From: Sedimentisphaerales bacterium
Lineage (GTDB): Bacteria > Planctomycetota > Phycisphaerae > Sedimentisphaerales > SM23-30
Length of the DNA: 64,000 nucleotides
Direction of reading: 5' to 3'
Assembly (NCBI GenBank): GCA_028281535.1
Contig: JANQJS010000032.1
Span: forward strand, 1 to 64,000
A program made the translations under genes and the position numbers. This document shows positions 1 to 19,588 of the stretch, piece after piece. Under the pieces are notes generated by a model. That model saw only the letters and a list, made by a program, of their open reading frames with translations. It was not told the origin of the DNA and made no database searches. Numbering within the stretch: position 1 is the stretch's first letter; every line of letters starts with the position of its first letter.

Positions 1-3000
1 ATTACGAGAACCTAACAATGTTTCAGTTTGCGTTTCATCATTGCTGATTAGATAGAAATCAACAGTAAATGCACCAGCAGCACTGGTACCTGAGTTGTAA
101 ACTTCATTATAGAAGGTAATATCTTCACCTGCGACAGCAAATGGAGGTACTTCCACAAAGCTGGCAACCAGATCAACATTAATCACATTACCAATGGCAA
201 CGGTATCGGTTGAAACAATGATATTATTTTCATCGTTTGATTCTGCAACAGTACCATCACTGTCAACAAGAATACCAATATAGAAATCACCATCTTCGCC
301 AAATGGATTTTCAGCTGGCAAAGTCAATACGGTCGACTGAATATTTTCTTTATTGGAATCCAGTTCACTAATGGTACGTGTGCCTAAGATATAGTCACGC
401 GTGGTAATTGATTTATTATCACTTAAGAAGAAAGTGACTTCAAATTCATCTGCTGAGGTGGTACCAATATTTTTAATCGTATTTTGAACAACAATGGTTT
501 CACCCCAATCGCTTTCTTCTACTGTCGATACAGCCGTTGGTTTCAGATCAGCAAAACCTTTACTCAAGATTTCGATTGGTGCGGTAGAGATATTATTTGA
601 CTGAGTTTCGCCATCTGCCACTAGATCTTCACCAGATTCAACGATGACATCAGCTTGATCAGCCACAGCGATGATGAAGTAATCACCTGCCGTACCTGTT
701 GCTGGTAACGTCACATCGGTTTGAGCACCATCAACAGCTTGTGATGCTAATGCCGTCACACTACGTGTGGTCAATAGGGTATCGGCACCATCAAAGACAT
801 TGTCACTTGAGAAATAATAGCTAATATCAAATGCCGCGGCGTCTGAAAGACCAACATTGAAGACTTCATCAGCAACGGTGATAACCTGACCAAAGTTACC
901 TGTGGCAGGAATATCATTAACCATCATCTGCAAATCAGGTGTACCTGAAATCGCAATGGTCTGACTGATTAAGTTATTGGTTTCATCGGTTTCAGCAACG
1001 GTTTCATCGCCATCGATGTTAATTAATAATTGATAGGAACCGTCACCATCTGGCAATGATTGTGGTAACAGCAGATCCAGATCCAATGTTTGGTCACCTG
1101 GCTCTAAACCAAAGATGACTTGACTGGTCAGATAGAAATCTGTCGGATCTAATTGACCATCTTGACTTAAGAAGACATCCATAAAGAATGGAGCAGACTC
1201 TTTAGTACCTGTATTTGACAAGGTTACATTAACATCAAGATTTTCTGCCCAGGTAGCCGTTGTTGGAGCATCGTTAATGGTTGCCGTCAAGTCCATATCA
1301 CCAGCACTTGCAACGATTGGTGTTGTAGAAACAATCAGGTTATTCAGCTCATCGGTTTCAACAAATCGATCATCCGCATCCACCAATGCTTTCACATAAT
1401 AATTTTCACCAGCTTCAACAATACCATGTGGCATAAATCCATTCAGATCAAATGACAAGGTTGAGGTCGCATCTAATGGTCCGTTGATTGAACCAAGGAA
1501 GAAACCTAAGAAACCGTCGGTATCTTGATTGTCACTGAGGAAGAATTCAACACGAACATCATCCACCGCATCATCGCTGGTATTTGAAATATCCAGGGTA
1601 AAGTCAAATTCTTCACCCACGGTGGCTTCTGAAGGAACGATCAAAGCATCTGCTGTCAGATCCAAAGTCACAGGAGCACCGACGAGGAAACGAGCAACAG
1701 CGGTATTGTTATCTTCAAAATCTTCATCAACCGCATTTGCTGAATCCGCTTGAACAATAATAAAATTCAAGCCATCTACAGCGGTTGCAGGTAATTCAAT
1801 CTGCAGTTGACCATCTTTTTCAGAGAGTGGACTTAAACCAGGCACTTCATTCGAACCTAATAGTAAGTCAGCGTCATCCAAAATATCGTCCGTTGAGAAG
1901 TAATAGCTAACGCCAAAGGCTCCCGCATCAGCTAAGCCACTGTTGCGAACACCAATTTCCATATCAAAGGTTGAACCTGCCAATACTTCTTCAGGTAAGA
2001 AGATTTCAGTAAAATGAATATCTGGTTTACCGATCGCTTCTGTTGAAATTTCAATAGAAGCGTTATTATCATTATTTTCAAAGTTGGTATCAAATGTACC
2101 GCCAGAAGCATTTACATTGACAACTAAGAATAATTCACCACCAAAACCAAATGGTGATTCTTGTGGCAAGGTAATATCAAAGGTTAATGTATTTGAACTG
2201 TTACCTTCAATTGCTTCTATTAAAGGCTGATTCAACAATGAGTAAACAAAGTTGTCTGCCGTATTATCAAGTGGACCGCCAGGTGTACCAGGATCACCTG
2301 CTACAGGAGGTGCACCTTCAGGTGAATTACTCAAGGCAATATCAATGAAGCCACCTTCAACTGAACCTGCATCCAGATTGTCAAGATTCACAGTAACTGA
2401 AATCGTATCGCCCCAATTAGCATCTTTATCAGTTGTAACAGACGAAACGGCTAAATCAACAGGTGCCGAAGCAACGTCAGCAAAAACATTAATAAATTCA
2501 CTGCTGCCATCAGCAGCTTTTACTTCAATATTACCCTGGAAGAATCCTTGTGTTGCTGGCGTAAAGACTACATTAAAGGTTAGCGAACCTTCTGGTGCAA
2601 TCGTTGCAGGTAATTGCCCGCCAGACACCACAAATTCGGTGGCGCTGCTGATCACTTCATTAATATCAAGAGAACCTTCACCATTATTGGTAATGGTAAA
2701 GCTATGTGTTAATGGATCACCACCCAAGAGCAATGTACCCATTTCGATCATGCGATCATTGGTATCATTTGAGGTATCTGTAATATCCATTTCACCTTTT
2801 AATGCTTCAATTCGAATTGGCATAAAGAAGGTGTTATTCTCTTCAATGGCTTCAGTAACCACATCACCAGAATCAACTTTCATTACCAGATCAAAACCAT
2901 TGGCTTGACCTGTAAGCAGTGAACTCGCTTCTGCTTCAGTTGGCATCGTCACGGTCAACTGCTGGAAGATTTCTTCATCTGGATCAAGATTTGCAATATT

Positions 3001-6000
3001 AGCGGTTCCAATGAGCAGACCTTGTTCTGCAGGTGTACCAGGCGTGGTTACATAGAAGCTCACATCAAAGTTTGACGCGGCTGAGATACCAAAGTTACCC
3101 AGTCCATAATTGATCGTAGCTTCTTGCCCCCAGGCAACATCAAATCCGGCATTGGCTTCAAAACCAACCAACTCCGCAGATGGGCTATCCGTAGTTAACC
3201 AGTCACCCATAAAATTATTGAATTCATCGAACTCGGTGACAGTATTATCAGCATCGATTTCAGCAATCACAAATACCGTTCCGGTACCAAGATCACCAGG
3301 ATCGGTTGGTAGTGTAATTGAAGTTAATACCGGCGTATTGCTATTTGCGGCAAGTGATGCTACATTTTGTGTGCCAACCAAGATATCATTACCATCAATC
3401 TCAGGATCATTTGAGAGATAGTATTTCACATCGAAAGCACCAGCATCGCTACCACCAAAGTTATCAATTTGACCGGTCAGGGTAATGGTATCACCCCAAA
3501 CAGCACTGGCGGTTGGATCAATATTGGTTTGTAGGAAACCGCCTAAATCAGCAGGCTTAGAACCAACAAAGATAGGAGACCAACCCACATTATCATTTTC
3601 ATCAAATTCATCGATATCATCATTGCCATCAGCCTTAGCTAAAAGATACCATTCATTTTGAGCACCCAAGCTGGTAGAAGGCAATGTCAATGCAACATTC
3701 TGATTGAGATTTTCAAATGGCGTCATGCCATCCACATTGAAGCTTCCTAATTCAGTATCAGCACCATCTAACTGTTCATCAGAGGATAAATAGTAGGTAA
3801 CTGAGAATGGATTAACGCTGACATTGCTGAAGTTATTGATGATACCATCCACATTCAGTGAATCACCCCAATCTACATTGTCTTCACCAGGATTAAAGAT
3901 AGGCACTGGGAAGGCAAGCAGGTTAGGTTGTTCAGGTGTACCAATAAAGACATCACGTGCCATGACGTTGTTTAATTCATCATCTTCTTCAATCGCATCT
4001 GAAGGATCAACCACAGCAATAATCGTAATAAACTGATCGCCTTCACCATCAGGCAAGGTAATCGTTGTCGTTGCTGTAAAGATTTCACCACCATTAATGG
4101 TAGGAATCGTTGTGGTGGCTAATAAGGTATCCGTTGCAGCATCAAAATTAAAGTCTGTTGATTGATAGAATGAAACATCAACATTGTCAGCTGAATTGGC
4201 ACCAAAGTTTTCAACCATTGCTTCTACATTGATCTCTTGACCCCACGCAGCATCAAATGGCATGATCACATCAAACAATTTCAAGTCAGAACCATCGCCT
4301 AATGCTTCGGTGAAACCAATACCCGTATTATTAAAAGTATCTTGTTCATCTAAGGTTTTTGCCATATCAGCGATTGCTACAACATGGTAGAAACCAAAGT
4401 TAATGTCATTGGGAATAGTTAGAGAAATATCATTTTCTGTAAAAGTTCCAGCTGCAATTGAATCAATAGTAGCAGTACCTAACAGTAACTCTGTGCTTAA
4501 AGGTACGCCCTGTTCATCAACATCAATCACCGGATCCTGTGAGAGATAGAAACTTACATCAAACGGTGAGTCAACAGCTGTTCCACCAAAGTTATCAACG
4601 CCATAAGTTACATCAATTTCCTGACCGGCACTGATAAATTGCGGAACATTCACATATGGCACAGCCACATCAACACCTGTAGGTGCAACAGCTTCAGCCA
4701 GTGTAATCGGTGTAATAAAGGTATTATTGGTTTCAGAAGTTTCATCAACACTATCAAAACCATCAACTTTTACACCAAGGAATAAGTTGGTAGATGTAAA
4801 CTGATCCTGTGGTGGAATATCAATCGAAATAAGGGTTTGTAAATCTTCCTGTGGAGCCAGTGAATTAAATGTCTTTTGACCAATGATAAAGTCGGTATCA
4901 TTAATGGTGTCATCTTCAGAGATAAAGACAGTGACATTGAATGGCTGATTCACAGGACCATTACCGATATTCTGAATTTGAGCATCAATTTCAATAAAAC
5001 TGCTGGCAAAGATCTCAGGTGGCAAGAAGACGGTACCAATCTTCAGATCAACTTCATTTTCACCAATAAAGACAGGTGTAAAACGAATGTTATTCAATTC
5101 ATCGATCTCTTCGATGCCATCGGCTGAATCCACTTTAGCAACGATATGATAACTACCATTTGCTAATTCACCTGCGGCAGGTAACGTCACACTGAAATCA
5201 TTTTTAGAGATACCAGCTGGATCCAACGATGCGATCGTGGTTTCAGCTAAAATAGTATCTGTTGAGTCAAATTCTGAATCTACGGAAAGCGCCACAGAAA
5301 TACTAAAGCTTCCTGCTGCCGTATCACCAAAGTTAACGACATCAGCAAAGAGATCTAAAGTATCGCCCCATCCAAATGATTCTGTAAAATCACCAGTAGT
5401 GCCATCGGCATTATTTTGTGCAGGCGCTCCAGCGGCATCTTCATCGTCATGATCAATTCCAAATTCAATCAGTGATAAATCAACACCAGCAATCAAATCT
5501 GGAGTTTCAACAATCTTAATCAATTCTGAGAAAATGTTATTTTGCTCATCAACTTCAGTAACTACTTCACCGCTATCAACAAAGATAATGATATTATAAT
5601 CGCCATCAGGTAATGTACCTGCTGCTGGCAATGTCACATCGACATCATTGATGGATTCAGCATTGGCAGCCAAATCAGTAATAGCTAAGCTTGCCAGTTC
5701 AGTATCCGTAGTATCGACGACATTATCAGTACTTAAAAAGATCTTGACATCAAACGGACCAGATGCAGCATTACCTTCATTGGTCAAGTCAATCGGCATA
5801 TCATATGTTTGACCCCAGATCAAATCAACTGGAGGCAGGAAGTGTTCGTTATCTGCAACCAGATCAACCCCTTCGATAGATCCATCACCAATTTGTAGCG
5901 GAGCAGAGAAGAAGTTATTGAATTCGTCGATTTCCTGGTTGGTATCTTCACTATCAACCACCAGAACAACATAGTATTCACCGTTTGGCATTTCACCTTC

Positions 6001-9000
6001 TGGTGGCAAGTTCACCGTCACATCTTTGGTGGTGGTTTCACCTTGAGCTAATGAGAAGATGGTAAAATTACCTAACAATTGACTATCAGGCGTTTGATTA
6101 GGCGTTTGGCTCAAATACATTTGAACGGTAAAACTGTTCGCATCTTGAGTACCCGTATTGCTCAAACTTGCTGTTAAATTCAATACATCGCCCCAGGTCG
6201 CAGGACCAGAGGTTGGATCTGAACCAAAGCTTAAACTGTCACCCACCAAATCAGGTGCATCGGTTGGTGCAGCAACATCTTGGCCAATAAAGATGGTTTC
6301 AAAACCACTATTATTGTCTTCGTTGATTTCCTGAACATCATCAGCCGAGTCAACGACCGTAATGATATTGTATGGCCCATCAGGTAATTCACCCACAGCT
6401 GGCAAGGAAATATTGACATCTTCATCAAAAACAGTTCCAGAAGCCAACGAAGGAACGGTCATTTCTGCCAATATGGTATCCGTAGCATCTAATTGACCAT
6501 CAATAGACAAAGCAACAGTCACCGTAAATGAGCCAGCATCCGTATCACCTTTATTAATAATCTGAGCAAATGTTTCTAACTGTTCTCCCCAGAAGAAAAC
6601 ATCACTGGTAGAATTTAAAACATTCTGAGTCGCAGGTTCAGGATCACCGATCACACCATCATTTGGAGGACCGAAATCACCTTCGTCATCATCTAAACCA
6701 AAGTCAAGTAATTCAAGATCAATACCGGCGGGCAAGGTTGATTGACTACCAATCGTTACCGTTTCCATATAGGTATTATTTAATTCATCTAATTCAACAA
6801 CCGCATCATCAGTATCCACTGCAAAGATCACAGTGTAAACACCGTCAGGTAATTCACCGGCAATTGGTAATGTAACATCTACATCATTCTCAGAATCACC
6901 AAATCCACCTATCGCTGGAACAGAGAAATCAGCTAAGACGGTATCGGCCGCATCCATAACAGCATCAGAACTTAACACGATCTTCACATTAAATGGACCA
7001 GCTGAATCTGAAGCTTCATTAACTATATCAACCGGCAGGGTGTATTGTTGTCCCCAAACCAAATCGACAGGTGGGAATAAGAATTCATCATCCGCCACAA
7101 GATCGACACCTTGAGGCCCACTACCAGGATCGCCACCCGGATCGGTTCCTGGATCACCTCCTGGATCTGGAGGTGAAGCTGTTTCGCCAATGGCAATCGG
7201 TGAAGAATGAATATTATTTGTTTCATCTGATTCGGAAATCACATCGCCCGTATCAGCTTTTATCACGATATAATAATTACCATCAGTTCCCGTTGCTGGT
7301 AACGTGACAGTGACAGAAGTTTCAAAGTCAGCATCAGAAGCTAAGGCTGGTACACTTAATGTTGTCAATAGGGTATCAGACGGATCGCCATCTGGACTTG
7401 AACTGAGATAGATTTCAGCATCAAACGCAGATGGTACGGCATCAAGACCATTGTTAAATATTTCAACAGCAAAGGTTACGGTATCACCCCATAGAGGCGC
7501 CGCGGCAGGTGGATTCAATGGATCAAAGACATCAAAGTGATCCACCATAATATCGACACCTTCGGTCAAAGGAGGATCTTCAGGATCTGTTCCTGGGTCA
7601 CCACCAGGGTCAGTTCCAGGATCGCCGCCCGGGTCACCACCGGGATCTGGAGGTTCAACGGTTGCACCAATCGCAATCGGTGAAGAGCTCACATTATTTT
7701 GTTCATCAGCTTCTGTAATGACTTCACCAGAGTCGGCTTTAGCAATGATATAGTAATTGCCATCAGTTCCCGTGGCTGGTAAGGTAATGGTAACAGGTGT
7801 GTGACTATCAGAACCTGCCGTGAGCGCTGCAACATTAAAGGTCGTTAATAAGGTATCTGAAACAGGATCTCCAGTTTGAGTAGAACTTAAGTAAAGTTCA
7901 ACATCAAAAGGAGCTGTTACATCTTGCGTACCATTATTAAAGATATCGACTTCAAAGCTTAATGTGTCACCCCAAAGTGGTGCAGTTGTAGGTGGATTCA
8001 CTGCATCAAAAATTTCCACTGGAGCCACACCAATATCAATACCTTCAACTGGCGGTTGATTACCAGGATCACCCCCTGGGTCTGTACCAGGGTCTCCACC
8101 CGGATCACCACCTGGATCTGGAGGGGTTACTGTAGCACCAATCGATAATGGTGCAGAAAAGATATTATTATTTTCATCAGCTTCTGTAACGACATCTCCA
8201 CTGTCAGCTTTCACAATTAAATGATAAGCACCATCAGTTCCACTAGCTGGCAACGTGACGGTTAATGGATTATCAAGCAAATCTGCTTCGGTAGGAATAT
8301 TAAATGTGGTTAATAATGTATCGGTCGCATCTAATGAAGCATCTGAACTTAACCAGACTTCTGCATCAAATGGAACTGTAATATTTGTATCACCAATATT
8401 TTTAAGATCAACGGTGAAGTTAAGTGTATCACCCCATAGCGGCGCTGTAGTTGTTCCAGCAGGCATAGGTTCAAATGGATCAACGATAATATCAATACCC
8501 GCGACTGGATCTGTACCAGGGTCTCCACCCGGATCGGTTCCTGGATCACCGCCTGGATCTGGAGGTGTTGCCGTGGCACCAATCGCTATAGGTGCAGCAA
8601 AAACATTGTTGTTTTCATCCGCTTCAAGTACCACATCAGCACTATCAGCTTTTGCAACGATATGATAATTACCATCGGTACCCGTTGCTGGCAACGTCAC
8701 TGTAATCGAATTATTGCTAACAGAACCAGCCGTTAAAGTAGCAACATTAAAAGTCGTTAATAAGGTATCAGTTCCATCAGCGGTAGCATCGCTACTCAAA
8801 TAAACTTCAACATCAAATGGTGAAACGGCATCAGCATCACCGGTATTTTTGATATCAATGGCCAACGTCAATGTTTCACCCCACAATGGTGCCGTTGTCG
8901 TTCCTTGTGGAACAGAATCAAAAGGATCGACTATCAGATCAATACCATTGACGGGTGCAGGTGGATCGCCACCACCTGGATCACCACCACCAGTTGCCCC

Positions 9001-11391
9001 GACTTGTACAGTTGCAGCAAAGACGTTGTTAGTTTCATCTGCTTCTGTAATCACTTCACCAGAATCAGCTTTAGCAATAATATGATAAGAACCATCGGTA
9101 CCTGTTGCTGGCAGCGTGATGGTGACAGCCTCAGTGTGAACCGCTCCCGAGGCCAATGTATTAACAGTAAATGTTCCTAATGATGTATCTGACGCATCAC
9201 TGGTAGCATCTGTACTTAAAATCAATTCAACATCAAAAGGACCTGAAGCAGCAGTATCACCCAGGTTTTTAACATCAACATTAAAACTTAAAATATCTCC
9301 CCAAGCTGGAGGAGCAGCGGGTAGTGTAATCGGATCAACAATAATATCAATACCAGTCACTGGATTTGTAGGAGGATCACCGCCACCACCAGTCGTATCA
9401 CCAATATTAAATGGAACAGAACCAAAGTTATTAGTTTCGTTAGTTTCGGTGTTCGTATCACCACTATCGATCACCATTAATAGATGATGGGCACCATCGG
9501 TACCACTTGCAGGAAGTGTCAAAATAACATCATTTTCACTGGTCGCACCCGCTAACATGGATGTCACAGTTAATGTATCAAGCAAGGTATCCCCGGCATC
9601 TTTAACACTATCCTGGCTTAAGTAAAATTCGACATCAAAACTTGTCGCGGCATCACTACCAATATTTTTGATATCCGCTGCAACATTGATCGTATCACCC
9701 CAAGTAAAAGGTCCAGGTGAATCTATATCAAAACCATTATTCGGTGCTATCTCTAAATCAATACCACTGGCTGGAGGATCACCACCACCGCCATTGGCAC
9801 CGATTGCAACAGGACCGGCAAAGATATTATTATTTTCATCTGTTTCTGTAATGGCCGCAGCACTATCCGCTTTAATAATAATATGGTACGGACCATCAGT
9901 TCCAGTTGCAGGTAAAGTAGCCGTCACAGCCTGATTACTTGTTCCACCTGCTGTTAAACTAGCAACATTAAACGTTGTTAAGACGGTATCACCAGCATCT
10001 GGAATCGCATCAGAACTTAAAATTACTTCAACATCGAAAGGACCTGAAACATCTGTGTCACCCGTATTTTTAAGGGTAACATTAAAGTTCATGGTATCGC
10101 CCCAAGCAGGTTGCCCCGCTGGTAAGGTGACTGGATCAACGGAGATATCTATACCACCTGCAGGTGGTGGAGAACCAGAACCTATCGAAATACCAGCAAC
10201 GTTAATCACATTATTGGTTTCATTGGATTCCGTCACACCATTGGAAGCATCAATTTCCATAATCAATTGATAATCACCATCAGTACCTGTTGCAGGTAAT
10301 GTCAAGCTTAATGGATTGGCGGACACGCCACCAGCAGCAATATCTGTAATATTGAGCGTATCAAGTAAAATATCACTAGCATCTGGTGTGGCATCCTGAC
10401 TTAACAAGATTTTCACATCAAAGGCACCTGATGCAGTATCACCTGAATTGCGAATATCCGCATTGATACTTATGCCATCACCCCAATTAAACGTGGTTGC
10501 ACCATTCACGATAAACTGATCGGGTACTAAATCAGCTCCTGCAGCAGGTGGCGGTGTATTATCATCAATCGTAATTGGGAAACCAAATGTGTTATTATTC
10601 TCATTGATTTCAGTGACGACTTCGCCACTATCAGCAACAGCACCAATATGGTAACTACCTGGAGCAACGCCAGCAGGAATGGTAATAGGTGTAGAACCAA
10701 TGTCATTGGCATTGCCACCAACGCCACCAACGGTTCGTGAACCAAGGATAATATCACCTAGATCTAAAGTGGCATCCGTAGATAACACATAGGTCACATC
10801 AAATCCAGGAGAAGTATTAGAAGTTGTATTATCGATTGTATCATTAAGGGTAATGTTATCACCGGGATGGTAAGGTCCGGTTTCAGAAATCGTAAATGAA
10901 CTCACCGTCAGGTCAGGGTCAGCCGGAGGTGGAGGTGCATCTGTTGCAATACTCAGTGGTACAGCTAACTGGTTATTGCCTTCATCGTTTTCTACAACGA
11001 CATCACCAGTATCAACTTGAAGGATAAGATGGTAAGCACCATCCGTACCACTGGCAGGCAGTGTTAGAGGTGGATTACCAGGCGCAGAGCCTCCGGCAAC
11101 AATACTCGCCTGGTTCATGGTTCCCAATTCAATATCACCTGCATCTGCAATCGCATCCTGACTAAGAATCATCTTCATATCAAAAGCGCCTGAATCAACA
11201 CTACCAATATTCTGTATGTTGGTTGTCAGGTTCAGGTTATCACCCCAATGATAAGGAGCAGCTGAATCGATACTAAATGCCGCAATATCTAAATCAGCAT
11301 TCAGTAGCAAACGGTTTTCCAATGGTTCCAAAGATATCTGGCTTTTACGATTCTGATCGAGCTGTTTACGAAACTTTCTCAATAATGACAT
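1..11391 (-). CDS. Giant LEPR-xLL / CARDB-repeat surface protein (3' end outside window)
   Basis: A single minus-strand frame stays open from an ATG at 11391 to the window edge, giving at least 3797 residues with no stop. I translated stretches at 1-60, 2461-2820, 5041-5100 and 8500-11391 and all stay in one frame. The N-terminus MSLLRKFRKQLDQ is followed by SLEPLENRLLLNAD, which resembles the LEPR-xLL motif at the start of giant planctomycete surface proteins. After it come about 28 repeats (counted by eye) of roughly 120-155 residues. Each has an N..WG(D/E) strand, DFYLS or VKI.LS with D.T.D. .LG, LP..GTDG.Y.., and a closing D..V.E.DE.NN. This is the CARDB (cell-adhesion-related) pattern. 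Repeats near the N-terminus are joined by Pro/Gly/Asp linkers, and one ASH-like domain interrupts the array at residues about 2875-2975. AAAGGG lies about 6 nt before the ATG. The likely role is an exported adhesin or cell-surface scaffold; ligand and anchoring are unknown because the C-terminus is missing. Confidence 0.9.
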   Translation of the reverse strand, partial: MSLLRKFRKQLDQNRKSQISLEPLENRLLLNADLDIAAFSIDSAAPYHWGDNLNLTTNIQNIGSVDSGAFDMKMILSQDAIADAGDIELGTMNQASIVAGGSAPGNPPLTLPASGTDGAYHLILQVDTGDVVVENDEGNNQLAVPLSIATDAPPPPADPDLTVSSFTISETGPYHPGDNITLNDTIDNTTSNTSPGFDVTYVLSTDATLDLGDIILGSRTVGGVGGNANDIGSTPITIPAGVAPGSYHIGAVADSGEVVTEINENNNTFGFPITIDDNTPPPAAGADLVPDQFIVNGATTFNWGDGISINADIRNSGDTASGAFDVKILLSQDATPDASDILLDTLNITDIAAGGVSANPLSLTLPATGTDGDYQLIMEIDASNGVTESNETNNVINVAGISIGSGSPPPAGGIDISVDPVTLPAGQPAWGDTMNFNVTLKNTGDTDVSGPFDVEVILSSDAIPDAGDTVLTTFNVASLTAGGTSNQAVTATLPATGTDGPYHIIIKADSAAAITETDENNNIFAGPVAIGANGGGGDPPASGIDLEIAPNNGFDIDSPGPFTWGDTINVAADIKNIGSDAATSFDVEFYLSQDSVKDAGDTLLDTLTVTSMLAGATSENDVILTLPASGTDGAHHLLMVIDSGDTNTETNETNNFGSVPFNIGDTTGGGGDPPTNPVTGIDIIVDPITLPAAPPAWGDILSFNVDVKNLGDTAASGPFDVELILSTDATSDASDTSLGTFTVNTLASGAVHTEAVTITLPATGTDGSYHIIAKADSGEVITEADETNNVFAATVQVGATGGGDPGGGDPPAPVNGIDLIVDPFDSVPQGTTTAPLWGETLTLAIDIKNTGDADAVSPFDVEVYLSSDATADGTDTLLTTFNVATLTAGSVSNNSITVTLPATGTDGNYHIVAKADSADVVLEADENNNVFAAPIAIGATATPPDPGGDPGTDPGGDPGTDPVAGIDIIVDPFEPMPAGTTTAPLWGDTLNFTVDLKNIGDTNITVPFDAEVWLSSDASLDATDTLLTTFNIPTEADLLDNPLTVTLPASGTDGAYHLIVKADSGDVVTEADENNNIFSAPLSIGATVTPPDPGGDPGGDPGTDPGGDPGNQPPVEGIDIGVAPVEIFDAVNPPTTAPLWGDTLSFEVDIFNNGTQDVTAPFDVELYLSSTQTGDPVSDTLLTTFNVAALTAGSDSHTPVTITLPATGTDGNYYIIAKADSGEVITEADEQNNVSSSPIAIGATVEPPDPGGDPGGDPGTDPGGDPGTDPEDPPLTEGVDIMVDHFDVFDPLNPPAAAPLWGDTVTFAVEIFNNGLDAVPSAFDAEIYLSSSPDGDPSDTLLTTLSVPALASDADFETSVTVTLPATGTDGNYYIVIKADTGDVISESDETNNIHSSPIAIGETASPPDPGGDPGTDPGGDPGSGPQGVDLVADDEFLFPPVDLVWGQQYTLPVDIVNEASDSAGPFNVKIVLSSDAVMDAADTVLADFSVPAIGGFGDSENDVDVTLPIAGELPDGVYTVIFAVDTDDAVVELDELNNTYMETVTIGSQSTLPAGIDLELLDFGLDDDEGDFGPPNDGVIGDPEPATQNVLNSTSDVFFWGEQLETFAQIINKGDTDAGSFTVTVALSIDGQLDATDTILAEMTVPSLASGTVFDEDVNISLPAVGELPDGPYNIITVVDSADDVQEINEDNNSGFETIFIGQDVAAPTDAPDLVGDSLSFGSDPTSGPATWGDVLNLTASLSNTGTQDANSFTVQMYLSQTPNQTPDSQLLGNFTIFSLAQGETTTKDVTVNLPPEGEMPNGEYYVVLVVDSEDTNQEIDEFNNFFSAPLQIGDGSIEGVDLVADNEHFLPPVDLIWGQTYDMPIDLTNEGNAASGPFDVKIFLSTDNVVDTTDTELASLAITDLAANAESINDVDVTLPAAGTLPDGDYNIIIFVDSGEVVTEVDEQNNIFSELIKIVETPDLIAGVDLSLIEFGIDHDDEDAAGAPAQNNADGTTGDFTESFGWGDTLDLFADVVNFGDTAAGSFSISVALSVDSEFDSTDTILAETTIASLDPAGISKNDFSVTLPAAGELANGSYHIVAKVDSADGIEEIDELNNIRFTPVFIGENEVDLKIGTVFLPPEIFASSFIEIDAQIQNIGNGPVNQPFNVTVFISEDDTINDTDFIIGQKTFNSLAPQEDLQTLISIDIPPQDQFTSTNLFLGVKVDGFDSVDETSETNNTFITPITLAEAVAPTGVDVAVPYVNVPQFISAGQEIDVTYGVDNFGGTAVDSPFDVSFYLSQDPVIDVDEQGVPLSTELLLGTATIDSIAAGTFTENDISLTIPNDINFGFYHVVAIADMAKTLDEQDTFNNTGIGFTEALGDGSDLKLFDVIMPFDAAWGQEINVEAMVENFGANSADNVDVSFYQSTDFNFDAATDTLLATTTIPTINGGEIFTATTTITLPDGEGDQFITIIAVVDPSDAIEEDDELNNVMARDVFIGTPEQPNLLAFPVPIFNPGEDNVDWGDSLNVDGIINNFSNVSVNPFSVTYYLSSDEQLDGADTELGSFNVDGMTPFENLNQNVALTLPSTSLGAQNEWYLLAKADGNDDIDEFDENDNVGWSPIFVGSKPADLGGFLQTNIDPTASAVWGDTITLTGQIDNFGGSDAGAFDVKYYLSNDPEIDGNDILVGTQNVASLAANSNTPVLTSITLPTDPGDLGTGTVFVIAEIDADNTVTEFDEFNNFMGDWLTTDSPSAELVGFEANAGFDVAWGQEATINYGLGNFGISAASNFDVSFYVTTPGTPAEQGLLIGTANIANLDPDEEIFQQLTVTMPTEAEASSLLTGQANGFDLVMKVDSGDVVTEAIEENNTFFMPIRIEALKGEMDITDTSNDTNDRMIEMGTLLLGGDPLTHSFTITNNGEGSLDINEVISSATEFVVSGGQLPATIAPEGSLTFNVVFTPATQGFFQGNIEVKAADGSSEFINVFADVASAPVDLAVSSVTTDKDANWGDTISVTVNLDNLDAGSVEGGFIDIALSNSPEGAPPVAGDPGTPGGPLDNTADNFVYSLLNQPLIEAIEGNSSNTLTFDITLPQESPFGFGGELFLVVNVNASGGTFDTNFENNDNNASIEISTEAIGKPDIHFTEIFLPEEVLAGSTFDMEIGVRNSGLADAGAFGVSYYFSTDDILDDADLLLGSNEVPGLSPLSEKDGQLQIELPATAVDGLNFIIVQADSANAVDEDFEDNNTAVARFLVGAPVTLDLTADALIVPSEATVGEEFDFTLDISNTSDDAVDDVRVEFFLSDNQDTDGFLGFFLGSINGPLDATSTLSFDLNGFMPHGIVEAGENYYVKALVDADDRFVETDELNNLIVSTTPIVASAGDMDLTATINDAPTTATWAENLDVNVTLSNTGTKESAPFFMDVFLSQDGQLDPTDFYLTSQVIFGLEPGDQTLDLDLLLPQSLPDGDGSYQLLINIDGDETVAETDETNNLISQTIAISGTPDLQMMVNDIPATGNFGQVITVADEVFNVGLSDAAAFDISYYFSSDNVFDGADTLLTTRSVTALASQAVDGAQTDVTLPATGTAGDYFIIAVADQADVIVESGEDLVADGETQSNNISTAPIEILSKGFADLKPTAVSTVEESDWGETIVVQNTIKNIGTTSADEFEVTFFLSDNKSITTRDYILGTRTISELDSNKENIQSTVLTLPAENPFGEDGDFYIGILVDSDGTVAESNDENNIIVSTDTVAIGNVINVDLVASFVEVPPFAVAGEDITFYNEVYNSGTSAAGAFTVDFYLISNDETQTETLLGSRN
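7120..9000 (-). repeat. Minisatellite-like Pro/Gly/Asp linkers between CARDB repeats
   Basis: Within the giant gene, inter-repeat linkers at about 7125-7171, 7582-7652, 8058-8125, 8509-8570 and 8953-8996 encode runs built from DPGGDP and DPGTDP units. At the DNA level they share near-identical blocks such as ccagggtctccacccggatc, present near 8090 and again near 8518. These are coding tandem repeats. Elsewhere in the array the linkers are short or absent. Confidence 0.8.
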
Positions 11392-12863: not shown

Positions 12864-13602
12864 AATAAGGCTCCTCAAAGTAAGATAATAAATAGTTAGT
12901 TATAAGCGCACACTCTCCGCTATGATCATGTTAGTTTTAATAACCATTTTAATTTTGGCAGGGGCAATACCAATGGTATAAGCGCAACGGTACCGCCAAG
13001 GTTTAGGTTGTTCTTAACTTCTCAGTATAGCCTGAAAACGCATACTTTCTTTATTGAGGATGAAAGTACCAGTCTATACTATTTTGCGATAATAAACGAC
13101 TCACATGTTTCGCTATTATCATTTTGGGCTAGTGTCTTGCATGCAATCAAGAGATGCAAAACAGGTCTTTTTGGTATTAACCATATAATTAATTCGGGGT
13201 AGTTAATGAATTAAATTACTACGTTGGTTAATATTGCTTAAGGTTAGCATTTAGTGCGGCGAGTAAAATACTCGTCAGTAATCCCACAATTACTAGTCAT
13301 ATTATAGCTTGGGAGTTAATGGATTTCAAGCCCAATTTCATTCAAATATGATGAAATTTCAAATCGGATTAACTAATAAATATCACCACCACTACAAGCT
13401 CTAGATAAACGCCATTTGGAGTCACAATCTATCTACATAACAATTAGCACTTTATATAGACCTACTTGACTTTTTTAATTCAAAATTCACGACTGAAACC
13501 ACGATTTCCAAATAGACGAATGCAATATTTTCGCTTATAATTCAATCTTATTATTCATAACACCCAGTGAGATTTTTGACACCATTCAAATGAGGAGTGT
13601 TA
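12864..13602. other. Divergent intergenic region between the pseudopilin and the pentose operon
   Basis: About 0.74 kb without a supported gene. The 10-mer TATAAGCGCA occurs at 12901-12910 and again at 12977-12986; on the minus strand this is TGCGCTTATA, upstream of the pseudopilin. TATAAT near 13536 could be a -10 for the pentose operon, but I see no good -35 at the right spacing. The 64-codon plus frame at 13008-13202 has no ribosome site and no coding character. Confidence 0.5.
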
Positions 13603-15288
13603 ATGCCTTACACAATCGGTTTAGACTACGGAACAAATTCAGTTCGTTGTATTATTGTTAATGTCGTCAATGGCCAGGAAATTGCAACGGCCATTCATGA
13701 ATATGAAACAGGTCAAGCTGGTATTATTCTCGACAAACATGATCACAATGTTGCACGCCAACATCCTGGCGATTATATCAAAGGCTTTGAGGTCACAGTA
13801 AAAGAAGCGATCTGCTCAGCACAAAAAGTAGACAAAGACTTTTTGCCTCAACATATTATTGGCATTGGGGTTGACACAACAGGCTCTACTCCCCTGCCAG
13901 TTAATGCACAAGGTGAGCCTCTTGGCATCCAGGAAAAATTCAAAAACAACCCGAATGCACAAGCCTGGCTTTGGAAAGATCATACCAGCTATGCTGAAGC
14001 AGCAGAAATTACAGAACTTGCTGAAAAAAATCGACCTGAATACCTTGCCAAATGCGGCGGCACCTACTCTTCAGAATGGTTCTTCAGCAAAATCTTACAT
14101 TGCCTGCGCATTGATCCTGAGGTCTTTGACGAGGCCTATACTTGGGTGGAATATTGCGACTACATCACAGGAATGATTACCGGAACCAGCCATCCTGACA
14201 ATCTAAAGCGGAGCCGATGTGCCGCAGGCCATAAAGCTATGTTTAACGAAGATTGGGGTGGCTATCCAGCCAGAGACTTTCTTGAAAAATTAGATCCAAA
14301 ACTAGCAGCTCTTCGAGACCGCCTTCCAGACAAAACCTATACCGTTTCAGAAATTGCTGGTAACCTTACAGAAGAATGGGCTAAAACACTTGGCTTACCC
14401 GCTGGTATTCCTGTTGCGATTAGTGCCTTTGACGCACACCTGGGTGCGATTGGTGCAGGCGTTAACCAGGGAAAATTGGTAAAAATTATTGGCACCAGCA
14501 CATGCGATATCATCGTTGCCTCTAAAGAAAATGAGTTGGCAGATATTCCAGGTGTATGTGGTATTGTCGATGGTTCCGTTTTACCTGACACATGGGGCTT
14601 GGAAGCAGGTCAATCAGCCGTTGGTGATATTTTTAATTGGTTTGTTAATGTTATCCAACCTGGCAAGACTGATGAAGCCAGCCATGAATATCTTAACGAT
14701 CAAGCGGCAAAACTAAAGCCTGGCCAATCAGGACTACTCGCACTTGATTGGAATAATGGTAACCGAACCATTTTAGTTGACCAAAGATTAACAGGATTAT
14801 TAATAGGCCAAACGCTTCATACCCGTCCAGAAGAAGTATACCGAGCCTTGATCGAAGCAACGGCTTTTGGTGCACTAGCGATCATTAATCGTTTTGAGGA
14901 ATATGGTGTAAAAATCAATGAAGTCATCAACTGCGGCGGTATTGCAGAAAAAAGCCCCTTACTTATGCAAATCTATGCAGACGTTACTGGTCGTGAGATG
15001 AAAATTTCGCAATCCTCACAAACGTGTGCTTTAGGTTCTGCCATTGCTGCAGCAGTTGTAGCTGGTAAATCAAATGGTGGATATGATTCTTTCACAGAAG
15101 CTCAATCAGTCATGGCTCATACAAAAGAAACGACTTACAAACCCATCACTGAGAATCACAAGATTTATAAACAGCTTTATAAACTTTATTCACAACTGCA
15201 TGATGCATTTGGTTTGGAAACTCAAGCAAAATCTATGCACAACATCATGAAGGAACTACTCGATATAAAAGAGAAGATGAATGCCTAA
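13603..15288 (+). CDS. araB: L-ribulokinase (FGGY family)
   Basis: Phosphorylates L-ribulose to L-ribulose 5-phosphate with ATP (EC 2.7.1.16), in the cytoplasm. It is 561 residues from the ATG at 13603, close to the usual size of about 565. GAGGAG lies 6 nt upstream; a GTG two codons earlier overlaps this site and is unlikely. The N-terminal phosphate-binding loop is IGLDYGTNSVRC. GVDTTGSTPLPV, NAQAWLWKDHTS and AISAFDAHLGAIGAGV match ribulokinase more closely than xylulokinase or glycerol kinase. IIGTSTCDII and CGGIAEKSPLLMQIYADV follow in the second actin-like domain. It is the first gene of a five-gene operon, with araD 31 nt downstream. No L-arabinose isomerase is visible here. Confidence 0.93.
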   Translation: MPYTIGLDYGTNSVRCIIVNVVNGQEIATAIHEYETGQAGIILDKHDHNVARQHPGDYIKGFEVTVKEAICSAQKVDKDFLPQHIIGIGVDTTGSTPLPVNAQGEPLGIQEKFKNNPNAQAWLWKDHTSYAEAAEITELAEKNRPEYLAKCGGTYSSEWFFSKILHCLRIDPEVFDEAYTWVEYCDYITGMITGTSHPDNLKRSRCAAGHKAMFNEDWGGYPARDFLEKLDPKLAALRDRLPDKTYTVSEIAGNLTEEWAKTLGLPAGIPVAISAFDAHLGAIGAGVNQGKLVKIIGTSTCDIIVASKENELADIPGVCGIVDGSVLPDTWGLEAGQSAVGDIFNWFVNVIQPGKTDEASHEYLNDQAAKLKPGQSGLLALDWNNGNRTILVDQRLTGLLIGQTLHTRPEEVYRALIEATAFGALAIINRFEEYGVKINEVINCGGIAEKSPLLMQIYADVTGREMKISQSSQTCALGSAIAAAVVAGKSNGGYDSFTEAQSVMAHTKETTYKPITENHKIYKQLYKLYSQLHDAFGLETQAKSMHNIMKELLDIKEKMNA

Positions 15289-15318
15289 CATGCCAAACCA
15301 GAGACCAAAGGAATCATC

Positions 15319-16008
15319 ATGAATAAACAAATAGCAACCGATGTTTGCCAGGCAAATATTGAATTGCAAAAACAGAAACTAGTCACGTTTAGCTGGGGCA
15401 ATGTCAGCGGCCTGGATGCTGATGAAAAAATCATGTATATAAAACCAAGTGGCGTACCTTATGACGAACTGACTCCCGAAATGATGGTCGGTGTTAACAT
15501 GGATGGTGATGTTGTTTATGGCAAATTAAAACCCTCTTCAGATACCCCCACTCATTTGGAACTCTATCGGAGCTTTGAAGTCATCGGAGGCGTATGCCAT
15601 ACCCATTCCCCTTATGCAACAATGTGGGCACAAGCTTGTAAAGATTTACCTTGTTTTGGAACAACTCATGCCGACTATTTCTATGGCAATGTTCCCGTTA
15701 CCCCTGTCATGACATCCGAAGAAATAAAATCTGACTATGAACTTAATACAGGTAAAGTCATTGTCCAACGATTTGAAAAAATCGATCCATTAGAAATGCC
15801 CGCCGTTCTGGTGGCAAACCATGCTCCTTTTACTTGGGGCCTGACACCACAAAAAGCGGTTGAAAATGCCGCAGTACTTGAACAATGCGCTTTCATGGCT
15901 TCTGGAACCATTTCAATTGATTCAAATCAGAAAGCTATTTCACAATCATTGCTTGATAAACATTATTTACGCAAACATGGAAAATCTGCCTATTATGGGC
16001 AATCTTAA
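15319..16008 (+). CDS. araD: L-ribulose-5-phosphate 4-epimerase
   Basis: Converts L-ribulose 5-phosphate to D-xylulose 5-phosphate (EC 5.1.3.4), feeding the pentose phosphate pathway. At 229 residues it matches the usual length of about 231. It is a class II aldolase/AraD-fold protein: FSWGNVSG and KPSGVPYDEL bind phosphate. HTHSPYATMWAQ carries two of the zinc-ligand histidines and VANHAPFTWG the third. THADYFYGNVPVT and YELNTGKVI are typical of AraD. It follows the ribulokinase directly and precedes the transporter genes, so kinase and epimerase supply consecutive steps for one imported sugar. Confidence 0.94.
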   Translation: MNKQIATDVCQANIELQKQKLVTFSWGNVSGLDADEKIMYIKPSGVPYDELTPEMMVGVNMDGDVVYGKLKPSSDTPTHLELYRSFEVIGGVCHTHSPYATMWAQACKDLPCFGTTHADYFYGNVPVTPVMTSEEIKSDYELNTGKVIVQRFEKIDPLEMPAVLVANHAPFTWGLTPQKAVENAAVLEQCAFMASGTISIDSNQKAISQSLLDKHYLRKHGKSAYYGQS

Positions 16009-16052: not shown

Positions 16053-17081
16053 ATGAAAAGAGTCCAAAGTGTATTGGTACTCGAATTATTATGTATTACA
16101 ATCTTCTTAAGCTCATTAGGATGCAAAAAAGAATCTAAATCGTCCTCTTCCAGCGCGGTCAAAGCAGGTAAATACACTATCATTGACACAAGAACGGATC
16201 AAGCATCTCGCTCCCGTGCAAAACAAAATGTTGAAGATGCCCTAAACCGTTATTCTGATATTCACTGCATGACAGGTTTATGGAGTTATAACGCTCCTGC
16301 CATTTTATCTGCAGTAAAAGATGCAGGCAAAACAGGTCAAATTAAAATTATCGGTTTTGATGAAGAAGCTGATACCATCCAAGGGATTAAAGATGGCCAT
16401 ATCGAAGCTACCGTTGTCCAACAACCTTTTGAATTTGGGTATATTTCAGTAAAACTACTTGCCGCTCTCGCGCGCAATGACAACTCAATGATCCCGCCGA
16501 CAAAAATAATAGACGTACCTGTTAAAGTTGTCGATATAGATAACGTCAATGGATTCTGGACAGGCATCGAAAAGATGCTAAAAGAGAAAAATGTGTCACC
16601 TCCAGCAAATCCCCAGCAAGTTAATGTGGCACTAATCAGTAATGCAACGGCTGATTTCTGGAAAATCGCTCGAAAAGGTGTTAATAAAGCTGAAAAAGAA
16701 TTTAATGCCGCCTGTGATTTTTTAATGCCACCTAATGGCACCTCGGAAGAACAACAACGCATGCTGGAAAGTTTGATTGCCAAGGGCACCTCTGGATTAG
16801 CCATCAGCCTCGTTGATCCAGCCAACCAAACGCAGATGATCAACAATGCCGCAACACAAATGAATATCATCACCCAGGACAGCGACGCTCCCAACAGTAA
16901 TCGATTATGTTATGTTGGAACCAATAATTATCAAGCAGGTCGCGAAGCTGGAAAACTCATCAAAAAAGCCCTCCCTGAAGGCGGCAACATTATGCTCTTT
17001 GTTGGATCCATGGATGCACAAAATGCCATTGATCGGCGGCAGGGAATCATCGACGAACTCAGTGATAAACCGATGCCATAA
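16053..17081 (+). CDS. Sugar-binding lipoprotein of an ABC transporter, circularly permuted
   Basis: A substrate-binding lipoprotein of the Peripla_BP_4 type with its halves in reversed order. Residues 1-24 are a lipoprotein signal with lipobox SSLGC, then a Ser-rich stretch. Residues about 40-180 are what is normally the C-terminal half: YTIIDTRTDQASRSRAK, MTGLWSYNAPAILSAV, IIGFDEEADTIQGI, VVQQPFEFGYISVKLLAAL. After a linker of about 10 residues, residues 191-342 are what is normally the N-terminal half: VALISNATADFWKIARKGV, IAKGTSGLAISLVDPANQT, ITQDSDAP, YVGTNNYQAGREAGKLI, FVGSMDAQNAIDRRQGI. The protein ends exactly where the first half would normally continue. AGGAG lies 9 nt before the ATG. 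The ABC ATPase starts 27 nt downstream. The frame is intact, so I treat it as functional; mis-assembly or a duplication-deletion product are alternatives. Confidence 0.82.
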   Translation: MKRVQSVLVLELLCITIFLSSLGCKKESKSSSSSAVKAGKYTIIDTRTDQASRSRAKQNVEDALNRYSDIHCMTGLWSYNAPAILSAVKDAGKTGQIKIIGFDEEADTIQGIKDGHIEATVVQQPFEFGYISVKLLAALARNDNSMIPPTKIIDVPVKVVDIDNVNGFWTGIEKMLKEKNVSPPANPQQVNVALISNATADFWKIARKGVNKAEKEFNAACDFLMPPNGTSEEQQRMLESLIAKGTSGLAISLVDPANQTQMINNAATQMNIITQDSDAPNSNRLCYVGTNNYQAGREAGKLIKKALPEGGNIMLFVGSMDAQNAIDRRQGIIDELSDKPMP

Positions 17082-17108
17082 GTCATATCTAGCGTTTTTA
17101 TAAGTAAT

Positions 17109-18623
17109 ATGATTGCTCAAAATAAAACACCAATCTTACAAGCCATGGGTATTACCAAACAATTCCCTGGCGTCAAGGCTCTGGATAATGTTGACTTAAC
17201 CCTCTACCCAGGCACCATCCATGCCCTGATTGGCGAAAATGGTGCTGGCAAAAGTTCTCTAATGAAAATCCTTGCTGGTATTCAACCTGCCGACCAAGGT
17301 GAGATCCTACTCGAAGGTCAAAAGGTTGACATCAATCATGTCAACGACGCAACGAACCTAGGCATTGCCTTAATTCACCAGGAACTAAGTCTCTCGGACA
17401 ATCTTGATATTGCGGCCAATGTTTTTCTCGGACGAGAACATTTGAAATTTGGCCCGCTAAAAATCATTGATAAAAAATCACTTTTTGAGAATACAAAACA
17501 GATCCTCCAACAGCTGGATTTAAATGTTTCTCCAGACACGCTGGTCAAAGATTTATCGATCGGTCAGCAACAAATGGTCGAAATAGCCAGAGCCCTTTCG
17601 ATAAATACTAAAATATTGATCCTGGATGAACCGACCAGCAGCTTAACACTTAAAGAAACGCAAGTTCTATTTAATGTTCTTAATGATTTAAAAGCAAAAG
17701 GTGTTAGTATTGTTTATATTTCACATCGTTTGATGGAAATTGAACAGATCGCTGATAACGTCATAGGGCTTCGTGATGGTAAAAACTCAGACACACTCCA
17801 ACGAGAAGATATTAATCACAACAAAATGGTCAGCTTAATGGTAGGACGAGACATTGATAATTTCTACCAACATGCGAATCACACCCTCCAGCATCCTATT
17901 TTTGAAGTCAAAGAGTTTGTCACCCAATTGCACCCAGCACATAAAATCAATTTTTCTATACAAAAAGGTGAAATTGTCAGCATGGCAGGATTGATTGGTG
18001 CTGGTCGAAGCGAAATAGCTCGAGCCATCTTTGGTATTGATAAATTAGTTCAGGGGACCTTAGGAATAAATGGTAAAACAACGACCATAAAATCCCCCCA
18101 AGATGCCATCCGTGCTGGAATTGCTTTAATCCCCGAAGATAGAAAAAACCAGGGATTGGTTTTAGAAATGTCCGTAGAAAACAACATGACCCTCGCCACT
18201 CTCAAACAAAACCAAACAGCCAGCCTAATGCATTTAAATAAGATGCACTCGATCGCGAGAGATCTGGTCCAAAAATTAAATGTAAAAACCCCCAACCTTG
18301 ATCAACAAGTGCAATTTCTATCGGGTGGTAATCAACAAAAGATCGTCATTGGAAAATGGCTGACGCATAGCTTGAATCTTCTGATTTTAGATGAACCCAC
18401 CCGTGGCGTTGATGTCATGGCCAAAGAAGAAATTTATCGTCTCATGGAAAAATTTACCCAGCAAGGCATGGCCATTCTAATGATCTCTAGTGAACTGGAA
18501 GAAGTCATCGCCTTCTCTGACCGAGTTCTAGTTGTCCATGAAGGTCGGCTCGCAGGGGAATTGTCAGGTGAAGATATCACCGAAAAACAAATTATGCGAT
18601 TAGCAACAGGGAGTGCATCGTGA
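17109..18623 (+). CDS. Sugar ABC transporter ATP-binding protein, two fused ATPase domains
   Basis: The energising subunit of a CUT2-type (ribose/xylose/arabinose class) sugar importer, at the inner face of the membrane. At 504 residues it is the normal size for the RbsA/XylG/AraG family. The first nucleotide-binding domain has Walker A GENGAGKSS, signature LSIGQQQMVEIA and Walker B ILILDEPTSSL. The second has the naturally degenerate Walker A GLIGAGRSE, signature LSGGNQQKIVIGKWL and LLILDEPTRGVD. The Walker A lysine replaced by arginine in the second half is usual in this family. Its stop overlaps the permease start by 4 nt (GTGA), implying translational coupling. The ribosome site before the ATG is weak. 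The substrate is inferred from the linked araB and araD to be a pentose or pentulose. Confidence 0.93.
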   Translation: MIAQNKTPILQAMGITKQFPGVKALDNVDLTLYPGTIHALIGENGAGKSSLMKILAGIQPADQGEILLEGQKVDINHVNDATNLGIALIHQELSLSDNLDIAANVFLGREHLKFGPLKIIDKKSLFENTKQILQQLDLNVSPDTLVKDLSIGQQQMVEIARALSINTKILILDEPTSSLTLKETQVLFNVLNDLKAKGVSIVYISHRLMEIEQIADNVIGLRDGKNSDTLQREDINHNKMVSLMVGRDIDNFYQHANHTLQHPIFEVKEFVTQLHPAHKINFSIQKGEIVSMAGLIGAGRSEIARAIFGIDKLVQGTLGINGKTTTIKSPQDAIRAGIALIPEDRKNQGLVLEMSVENNMTLATLKQNQTASLMHLNKMHSIARDLVQKLNVKTPNLDQQVQFLSGGNQQKIVIGKWLTHSLNLLILDEPTRGVDVMAKEEIYRLMEKFTQQGMAILMISSELEEVIAFSDRVLVVHEGRLAGELSGEDITEKQIMRLATGSAS

Positions 18624-19588
18624 AAAAAGTAGCTGGTATTTTCATTGTTTTTATTTTATTGATGATCTTGACGACCATCGGTAACCCTGATTTTTTGTCA
18701 GAAAATAATCTTAGAAACATTGCACGCTGGACAGGTATGTATGGCATCATTACTATCGGTGTGGCTTTTGTGATTATCACGGGCGGGATCGACTTATCTA
18801 TTGGCGCCGTTGTTTGTCTGACAGGCACGTTACTACCTTTGTGGCTAACACATGAAAATATCCAAATGTCCGTTCCGCTCGCATTAATTCTTATCCTGAC
18901 TATTTCTGCAGCCATTGGCTGTTTACATGGACTTTTAATAACCAAACTTAAACTACAACCCTTTGTTGTTACACTATGCGGTCTTTTTGCCTATCGAGGC
19001 ATTGCACGATATATTACAGAAGATGCAACACAAGGTTTTGGAATTGGATTTCAATCCCTTAAGTTTTTAGCCAGTGGAAAAATCACACCACTAATGATCC
19101 CTTTCCCATTTGTTTTACTGATTGTTATTGGCATCATTGCAGCCATCTTTCTTAATCGAACGATATATGGAAGATATTTACTCGCTCTGGGAAACAATGA
19201 ACAAACGGCACGCTTCAGTGGCATCAACACTGATCGCATGATCATTTCTTCGTATGTTATTTCATCTGTTTTGGCTGGCATAGCCGGAATGATTTTTGCC
19301 TTGGATTTAAATTCAGTCCAACCCTCCAGTCATGGAAATTTCTTTGAACTTTATGCCATCGCTGGAGCGGTATTAGGCGGCTGTAGTTTACGTGGCGGCG
19401 AAGGAAGCATTCTAGGGGTCATTATCGGGACAGCTATCGTTAGAGTACTTTATAATGCCATCAACATTGTTGGTATTGCAACGCAATTGGAATATACCGT
19501 TATTGGCCTTGCTTTATTATTCGGGGTGATTATCGATGAAATGCTAAAACGGTATTCAGCAACTCGCATGCGATCTAAAGGGTCGTAA
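18620..19588 (+). CDS. Sugar ABC transporter permease (CUT2 / RbsC type)
   Basis: Integral membrane permease of 322 residues, typical of RbsC/XylH/AraH proteins. The GTG start at 18620 lies inside the ATPase stop. It has about eight to ten hydrophobic segments. FVIITGGIDLSIGAVVCLTG is the family hallmark near the N-terminus, and AIAGAVLGGCSLRGGEGSIL is the conserved coupling region that contacts the ATPase. NNEQTARFSGINTDR matches the usual N..AAR.SGI.... loop. It is the last gene of the pentose operon; a convergent minus-strand gene ends 36 nt further on, and I see no clear terminator between them. Confidence 0.93.
   Translation: MKKVAGIFIVFILLMILTTIGNPDFLSENNLRNIARWTGMYGIITIGVAFVIITGGIDLSIGAVVCLTGTLLPLWLTHENIQMSVPLALILILTISAAIGCLHGLLITKLKLQPFVVTLCGLFAYRGIARYITEDATQGFGIGFQSLKFLASGKITPLMIPFPFVLLIVIGIIAAIFLNRTIYGRYLLALGNNEQTARFSGINTDRMIISSYVISSVLAGIAGMIFALDLNSVQPSSHGNFFELYAIAGAVLGGCSLRGGEGSILGVIIGTAIVRVLYNAINIVGIATQLEYTVIGLALLFGVIIDEMLKRYSATRMRSKGS

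Follow-up and report, generated by a model that had tools for sequence, protein, structure and literature searches.

A circularly permuted sugar-binding lipoprotein in a Sedimentisphaerales operon, and repeated changes of block order in its family

The window analysed here is a stretch of 64,000 nucleotides from contig JANQJS010000032.1 of a Sedimentisphaerales bacterium. It contains an intact operon, araB-araD-SBP-ATPase-permease, centred on the gene of a solute-binding protein (SBP), a 342-aa ORF with an intact frame at 16053-17081 (+). The original prediction had described the surrounding kinase, epimerase, ATPase and permease as intact, and all four are recovered by profile searches: araB, an L-ribulokinase of the FGGY type, at 13597-15288 (+) (TIGR01234, 615 bits, cut-off 583); araD, an L-ribulose-5-phosphate 4-epimerase, at 15319-16008 (+) (NF006047, 336 bits, cut-off 257); the ATPase of a sugar ABC transporter, with two ABC domains, at 17109-18623 (+) (PF00005, two stretches); and its permease at 18620-19588 (+) (PF02653). 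As the SBP gene directly follows araB and araD, the substrate is probably a pentose. A search of the organism's own genome (99% complete) with PF02610 gave no match for AraA, so L-arabinose is just one option for this substrate. The combination of araB and araD (13597-16008) with no AraA match in the same genome may point to an unusual isomerase or to an unusual imported sugar. Near the operon, a giant protein is encoded on the minus strand (window positions 1-11391) by a frame that stays open for at least 3797 aa and runs off the window start.

With regard to the SBP gene itself, several parts can be distinguished, all on the plus strand. A lipoprotein signal peptide (residues 1-23, 16053-16121) consists of a hydrophobic stretch followed by the lipobox SSLGC, which bears out the intact lipoprotein signal that had been predicted. 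It is followed by the lipid-anchor Cys24, invariant in the alignment of proteins with the same block order (type A, defined below), and by a mature N-terminal spacer (residues 24-36, 16122-16160) that has low confidence in the structure model. Block HMMs then delimit block B2, with which the canonical C-half opens (YTIIDTRTD...AVKDAGK, residues 37-92, 16161-16328), and block B3, the remainder of that half (IKIIGFDEEADTI..., residues 95-175, 16335-16577). A new linker between the old C- and N-termini corresponds to the gap separating the block HMM matches (residues 176-188, 16578-16616); a linker had been foreseen at about 10 residues, whereas the HMM blocks leave 13 between them. Block B1, the canonical N-half (VALISN...IIDEL), closes the protein (residues 189-339, 16617-17069; Peripla_BP_4 profile positions 6-149), and the sequence ends with the new C-terminus and the stop codon (17070-17081). 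The stop lies three residues past the N-half block, immediately after IIDELSDKPMP, in keeping with the expectation that it would fall at the new break.

The Pfam profile Peripla_BP_4 matches this ORF in two stretches (189 bits, cut-off 35.1, E 1.2e-55), and residues 196-338 correspond to profile positions 6-149. The protein also has the export signal and the adjoining cognate ATPase and permease expected of the sugar SBP of an ABC importer, and its araB/araD context suggests that it would bind a sugar. The canonical arrangement, with the N-half segment ahead of the C-half, is absent from the window protein, whose block order is B2-B3-B1. The original prediction, that the second set of segments comes first and the first set after it, came with several proposed checks, among them a domain-order alignment, a structure model and a search of related genomes. 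In the first of these three, a whole-genome profile scan, profile positions 150-256 lie at 16164-16478, ahead of positions 6-159 at 16638-17096, so that the C-half precedes the N-half. The same swapped order is obtained with phmmer against the Thermotoga maritima glucose-binding protein (2qvc), in which window residues 191-339 correspond to residues 4-153 and residues 34-155 to residues 148-272, and with the block HMMs, which place the C-half at 37-92 and 95-175, followed by the N-half at 189-339. Profile, PDB and block-HMM alignments thus agree on a circularly permuted type I fold, and the E-values of the matches exclude chance by a wide margin.

The second check, a structure model, gave a confidently predicted two-lobed binding protein (AF2, pLDDT 90.2, pTM 0.83). 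Over residues 36-342 the window protein is collinear with PDB 5er3, an ABC transporter solute-binding protein from Rhodopirellula baltica SH 1 (phmmer, E 3.5e-79), and a Foldseek search with the model ranked 5er3 first (314 columns, TM 0.77/0.83). Both the model and the similarity to 5er3 suggest that the window protein would fold into the same two lobes. Canonical glucose-binding proteins align with the model over only about 150 columns, which would be expected when a sequential aligner is given a permuted chain. The closest relatives do not exceed about 56% identity over the blocks. Among the 107 canonical relatives, 36 positions reach a conservation of at least 95%, and the window protein retains the same residue at 35 of them.

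The third check was extended into a survey of relatives, of the phylum, of the class and of named genomes, which yielded 138 family ORFs among the fetched loci. Block order was scored with three block HMMs, with canonical defined as B1-B2-B3, type A as B2-B3-B1 and type B as B3-B1-B2. The census comprises 107 canonical, 26 type A, 3 type B and 2 truncated members; these counts refer to ORFs rather than species, as the records of a few organisms were fetched twice (e.g. L038/L092). The window's order therefore recurs in 25 other family ORFs, as well as in a crystal structure, in line with the predicted natural circular permutant. Type A is found in Planctomycetota, Poribacteria and Verrucomicrobiota, including two single-contig genomes (G470 and G428) and an isolate, Blastopirellula marina DSM 3645 (L159). 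Several key permutants of the family (L085, type B L098 and those of the Poribacteria) come from MAGs. Based on these results, we consider it highly probable that the window gene encodes the sugar-binding lipoprotein of an ABC importer in the form of a naturally permuted type I fold, in a family in which the order has changed repeatedly.

Type B is a second permutation, absent from the original prediction and cut one strand/helix unit past the type A cut; it is found at L039:1375-2517 (G279), L082:1264-2406 (minus strand; G453, a single-contig genome) and L098:5860-6963 (uncultured Pirellula). These proteins start with VKVIAFDEND or a similar sequence past the lipobox and end with EALDRAGRLGK or a similar sequence. 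According to the secondary structure of the model, the cuts of both types lie between a helix and the next strand in the C-lobe. The type A cut falls in a loop of varying length among canonical members, and the type B cut in a tight turn whose length does not vary; the structure model of type B is poor (alignment of three rows). In the family of G453, 62 further genomes contain a relative; all of the matches in them start beyond block B3, so that none has the order of G453. When genome contigs were scanned with a single protein no match was obtained, whereas an alignment of the permuted proteins used as query did match.

To count the permutations, the blocks were rotated to one order, giving an SBP alignment of 96 rows and 289 columns. 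The resulting tree needs 7 changes of order, and a tree of the partner ATPase and permease, which is free of permuted sequence, also needs 7, with the same pattern. In AU tests, type A as a single clade was rejected (p 1.7e-48), as was type B (p 0.011), whose members are split between two lineages in the trees. On the SBP tree, L085 lies within canonical sequences, and it ends with their loop (LDRSHDPTRYDEPGSH), so that it represents a separate permutation event. On the partner tree, Pirellulaceae type A and Poribacteria/Verrucomicrobia type A form two well-supported clades, each with canonical operons, and the linkers of the two groups differ in length and sequence. On these sequence trees, at least four independent permutations are needed (main type A, L085, and type B twice), and five or six are likely.

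The position of the window gene is less clear-cut. Its placement on the SBP tree is weak (79/46), and the partner tree groups it with canonical Spirochaetota operons (97/82). AU tests gave p 0.043 for the window and the Pirellulaceae as one clade, p 0.019 for the window with all main type A and L105, and p 0.155 when canonical L040 was added to the latter; since the census preceded the naming of the groups, p-values near 0.05 carry little weight. The permutation of the window gene may be an event of its own or one shared with the Poribacteria and Verrucomicrobia. A single origin of type A (L085 perhaps excepted), by one ancient permutation spread by horizontal transfer, with canonical L040, L105 and L107 as reversions, is possible and has some points in common with the data: main type A without the window and L085, and with L105, is not rejected as one clade (p 0.088), nor is this clade when extended by the window and L040 (p 0.155), and the window, Poribacteria and Pirellulaceae proteins share a motif at each of the new termini, AGKY at the N-terminal and DKPxP at the C-terminal one. 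We regard it as rather unlikely, because the partner tree splits Pirellulaceae type A from Poribacteria/Verrucomicrobia type A, with canonical operons in each, and the linkers vary between the groups; moreover, L085 and both type B lineages stay separate regardless. If it were true, the window protein would still be a permutant and the recurrence would be smaller.

Within the Poribacteria, canonical L105:1386-2495 and L107:5869-6957 sit among permuted members. Their halves show about 75-77% DNA identity to those of permuted L084, in swapped positions, with the ATPase next in both. Since the permuted Poribacteria and Verrucomicrobia linkers look homologous (LGETAK..., AGEEGK...), the simplest reading is that the permutation was gained once and later reversed. 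The nesting of L105/L107 is not forced by the SBP tree (p 0.092) and is supported by the partner tree (p 0.008). L105/L107 would thus be a probable reversion, and two or more separate gains in Poribacteria/Verrucomicrobia are a possible alternative. Two of these Poribacteria contigs, L110 (about 4449-5041 and elsewhere) and L083 (about 1080-1124), also contain many copies of a sequence of about 43-45 bp, some of them spaced 137 bases apart.

Among the permuted loci with flanks, the majority, and all of those with an identified ATPase, have the SBP gene directly ahead of the ATPase gene and usually of a permease gene too; canonical operons are alike. The permuted loci L090/L168, L091, L092/L169 and L094 have no close ATPase or permease match. 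The use of the same slot where partners are present suggests that the rearrangement occurred in place, within the gene. The trees show recurrence of types A and B in one SBP family, apparently in place inside the operon. On balance we favour the view that this family is a permutation hot spot, with repeated in-place switches at two C-lobe loops and at least one return to canonical order (Poribacteria L105/L107).

Each change of order most likely began with tandem duplication in place and fusion, after which the redundant ends were lost; this is the usual route of permutation (PMC3320104). In the window protein, the old termini are joined by the 13-residue linker, and the loop that precedes the C-lobe strand TIIDTRTD holds the new termini. 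Among the ORFs of 207 loci, no fused, partly trimmed or split-half intermediates were found in the family, apart from truncations at contig ends and repeats in L110. The L110 repeat (L110:6859-7325) is a tandem array of 2.8 copies with a period of 167, made up of the 3' end of a permuted SBP gene and the bases that follow it; this 167-bp repeat shows that local duplication happens and nothing further. The function of the window SBP would be ordinary, namely the capture of a sugar by closure between the two lobes and its delivery to the adjoining permease.

As a result of the permutation, the lipid anchor would now be on the C-lobe. For Tp0684 of Treponema pallidum, membrane anchoring has been suggested as the adaptive reason for the permutation (PMC4990184), and a similar adaptation, in which the tether is moved to the other lobe, could be considered here in place of a near-neutral rearrangement. 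All 29 permuted ORFs are apparently lipoproteins (25 by lipobox filter, the other 4 by eye) and some canonical members carry ordinary cleavable signals, a bias which hints that anchoring may bear on permutation, in counts that ignore descent. However, lipoproteins also predominate among the canonical members (the strict filter accepts 71 of 107, and inspection by eye adds more), so the permutation cannot be put down to anchoring alone, and as the permuted and canonical counts are not corrected for descent, we consider this adaptive reading doubtful.

Two further readings were considered and rejected. The single-copy state of the gene and the lack of a close relative would suit a decaying gene, a rearranged and non-functional remnant inside an otherwise intact operon, but the retention of 35 of the 36 near-invariant positions, the confident AF2 model and the preservation of the arrangement in distant lineages, next to ATPase and permease genes that are intact, make this very improbable. 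The collapse or mis-joining of two tandem canonical genes, conceivable in that draft assemblies underlie the window and several of its relatives, is ruled out in practice by the single copy in the genome, by a frame that is intact and includes signal, linker and stop, and by the identical order in 25 other ORFs, in single-contig genomes and isolates, and in 5er3.

Among solved proteins, 5er3 has the same block order, cut site and fold as the window protein, at 43% identity. Its closest resemblance is to type A proteins of the Pirellulaceae, a group set apart from the window on the partner tree. The nearest canonical solved proteins are structures of the T. maritima glucose-binding protein (2h3h, 2qvc, 3c6q), in which both halves align, separately and in swapped order relative to the window protein. 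Tp0684/TpMglB-2 ("Type Ic"/"Cluster Bc"; 5jx2, 6bgc) is, like the window protein, a type I sugar-binding lipoprotein with a naturally permuted chain; it was described in 2016, binds D-glucose and changes conformation (PMC4990184). In Tp0684 the cut is in the N-lobe, with the first three strands moved to the C-terminus (PMC4990184), whereas types A and B are cut in the C-lobe and the whole N-half is moved in the window protein; the structure of Tp0684 matches the window model partially (Foldseek, TM about 0.4). The permutant had been predicted to be unusual, which has to be tempered in view of this publication (PMC4990184) and of 5er3, released in 2015. No paper on the topology of 5er3 was found in the open-access literature searched, which is not proof of absence. 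The window gene alone is thus a further member of a rare, already described kind.

In nature, circular permutation is usually encountered as an isolated pair of proteins of ancient origin. Its recurrence in one family, at two cut sites, appears to be new, as no description of it was found in the open-access literature searched. The family represents a rare natural experiment in protein rearrangement, with several independent events, two cut sites and some changes between fairly close relatives, and it allows tests of which loops tolerate new termini, of the survival of intermediates, of the role of the lipid anchor and of reversibility. For annotation, single-span alignments catch just half of permuted proteins. 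For biosensor design, the family reveals termini that nature has accepted in periplasmic binding proteins.

The canonical members L040 (G161), L105/L107 (Poribacteria) and L176 (G045) have the same operon partners as the window SBP and differ in having the N-half before the C-half; L040 shows about 50-60% identity to the window protein in each half. Among loci with flanks, only L176 also has close araB and araD genes (72% and 63% relative to those of the window), with a canonical SBP. In L176, these genes stand beside a canonical transporter from another branch, and the catabolic and transport parts have apparently recombined.
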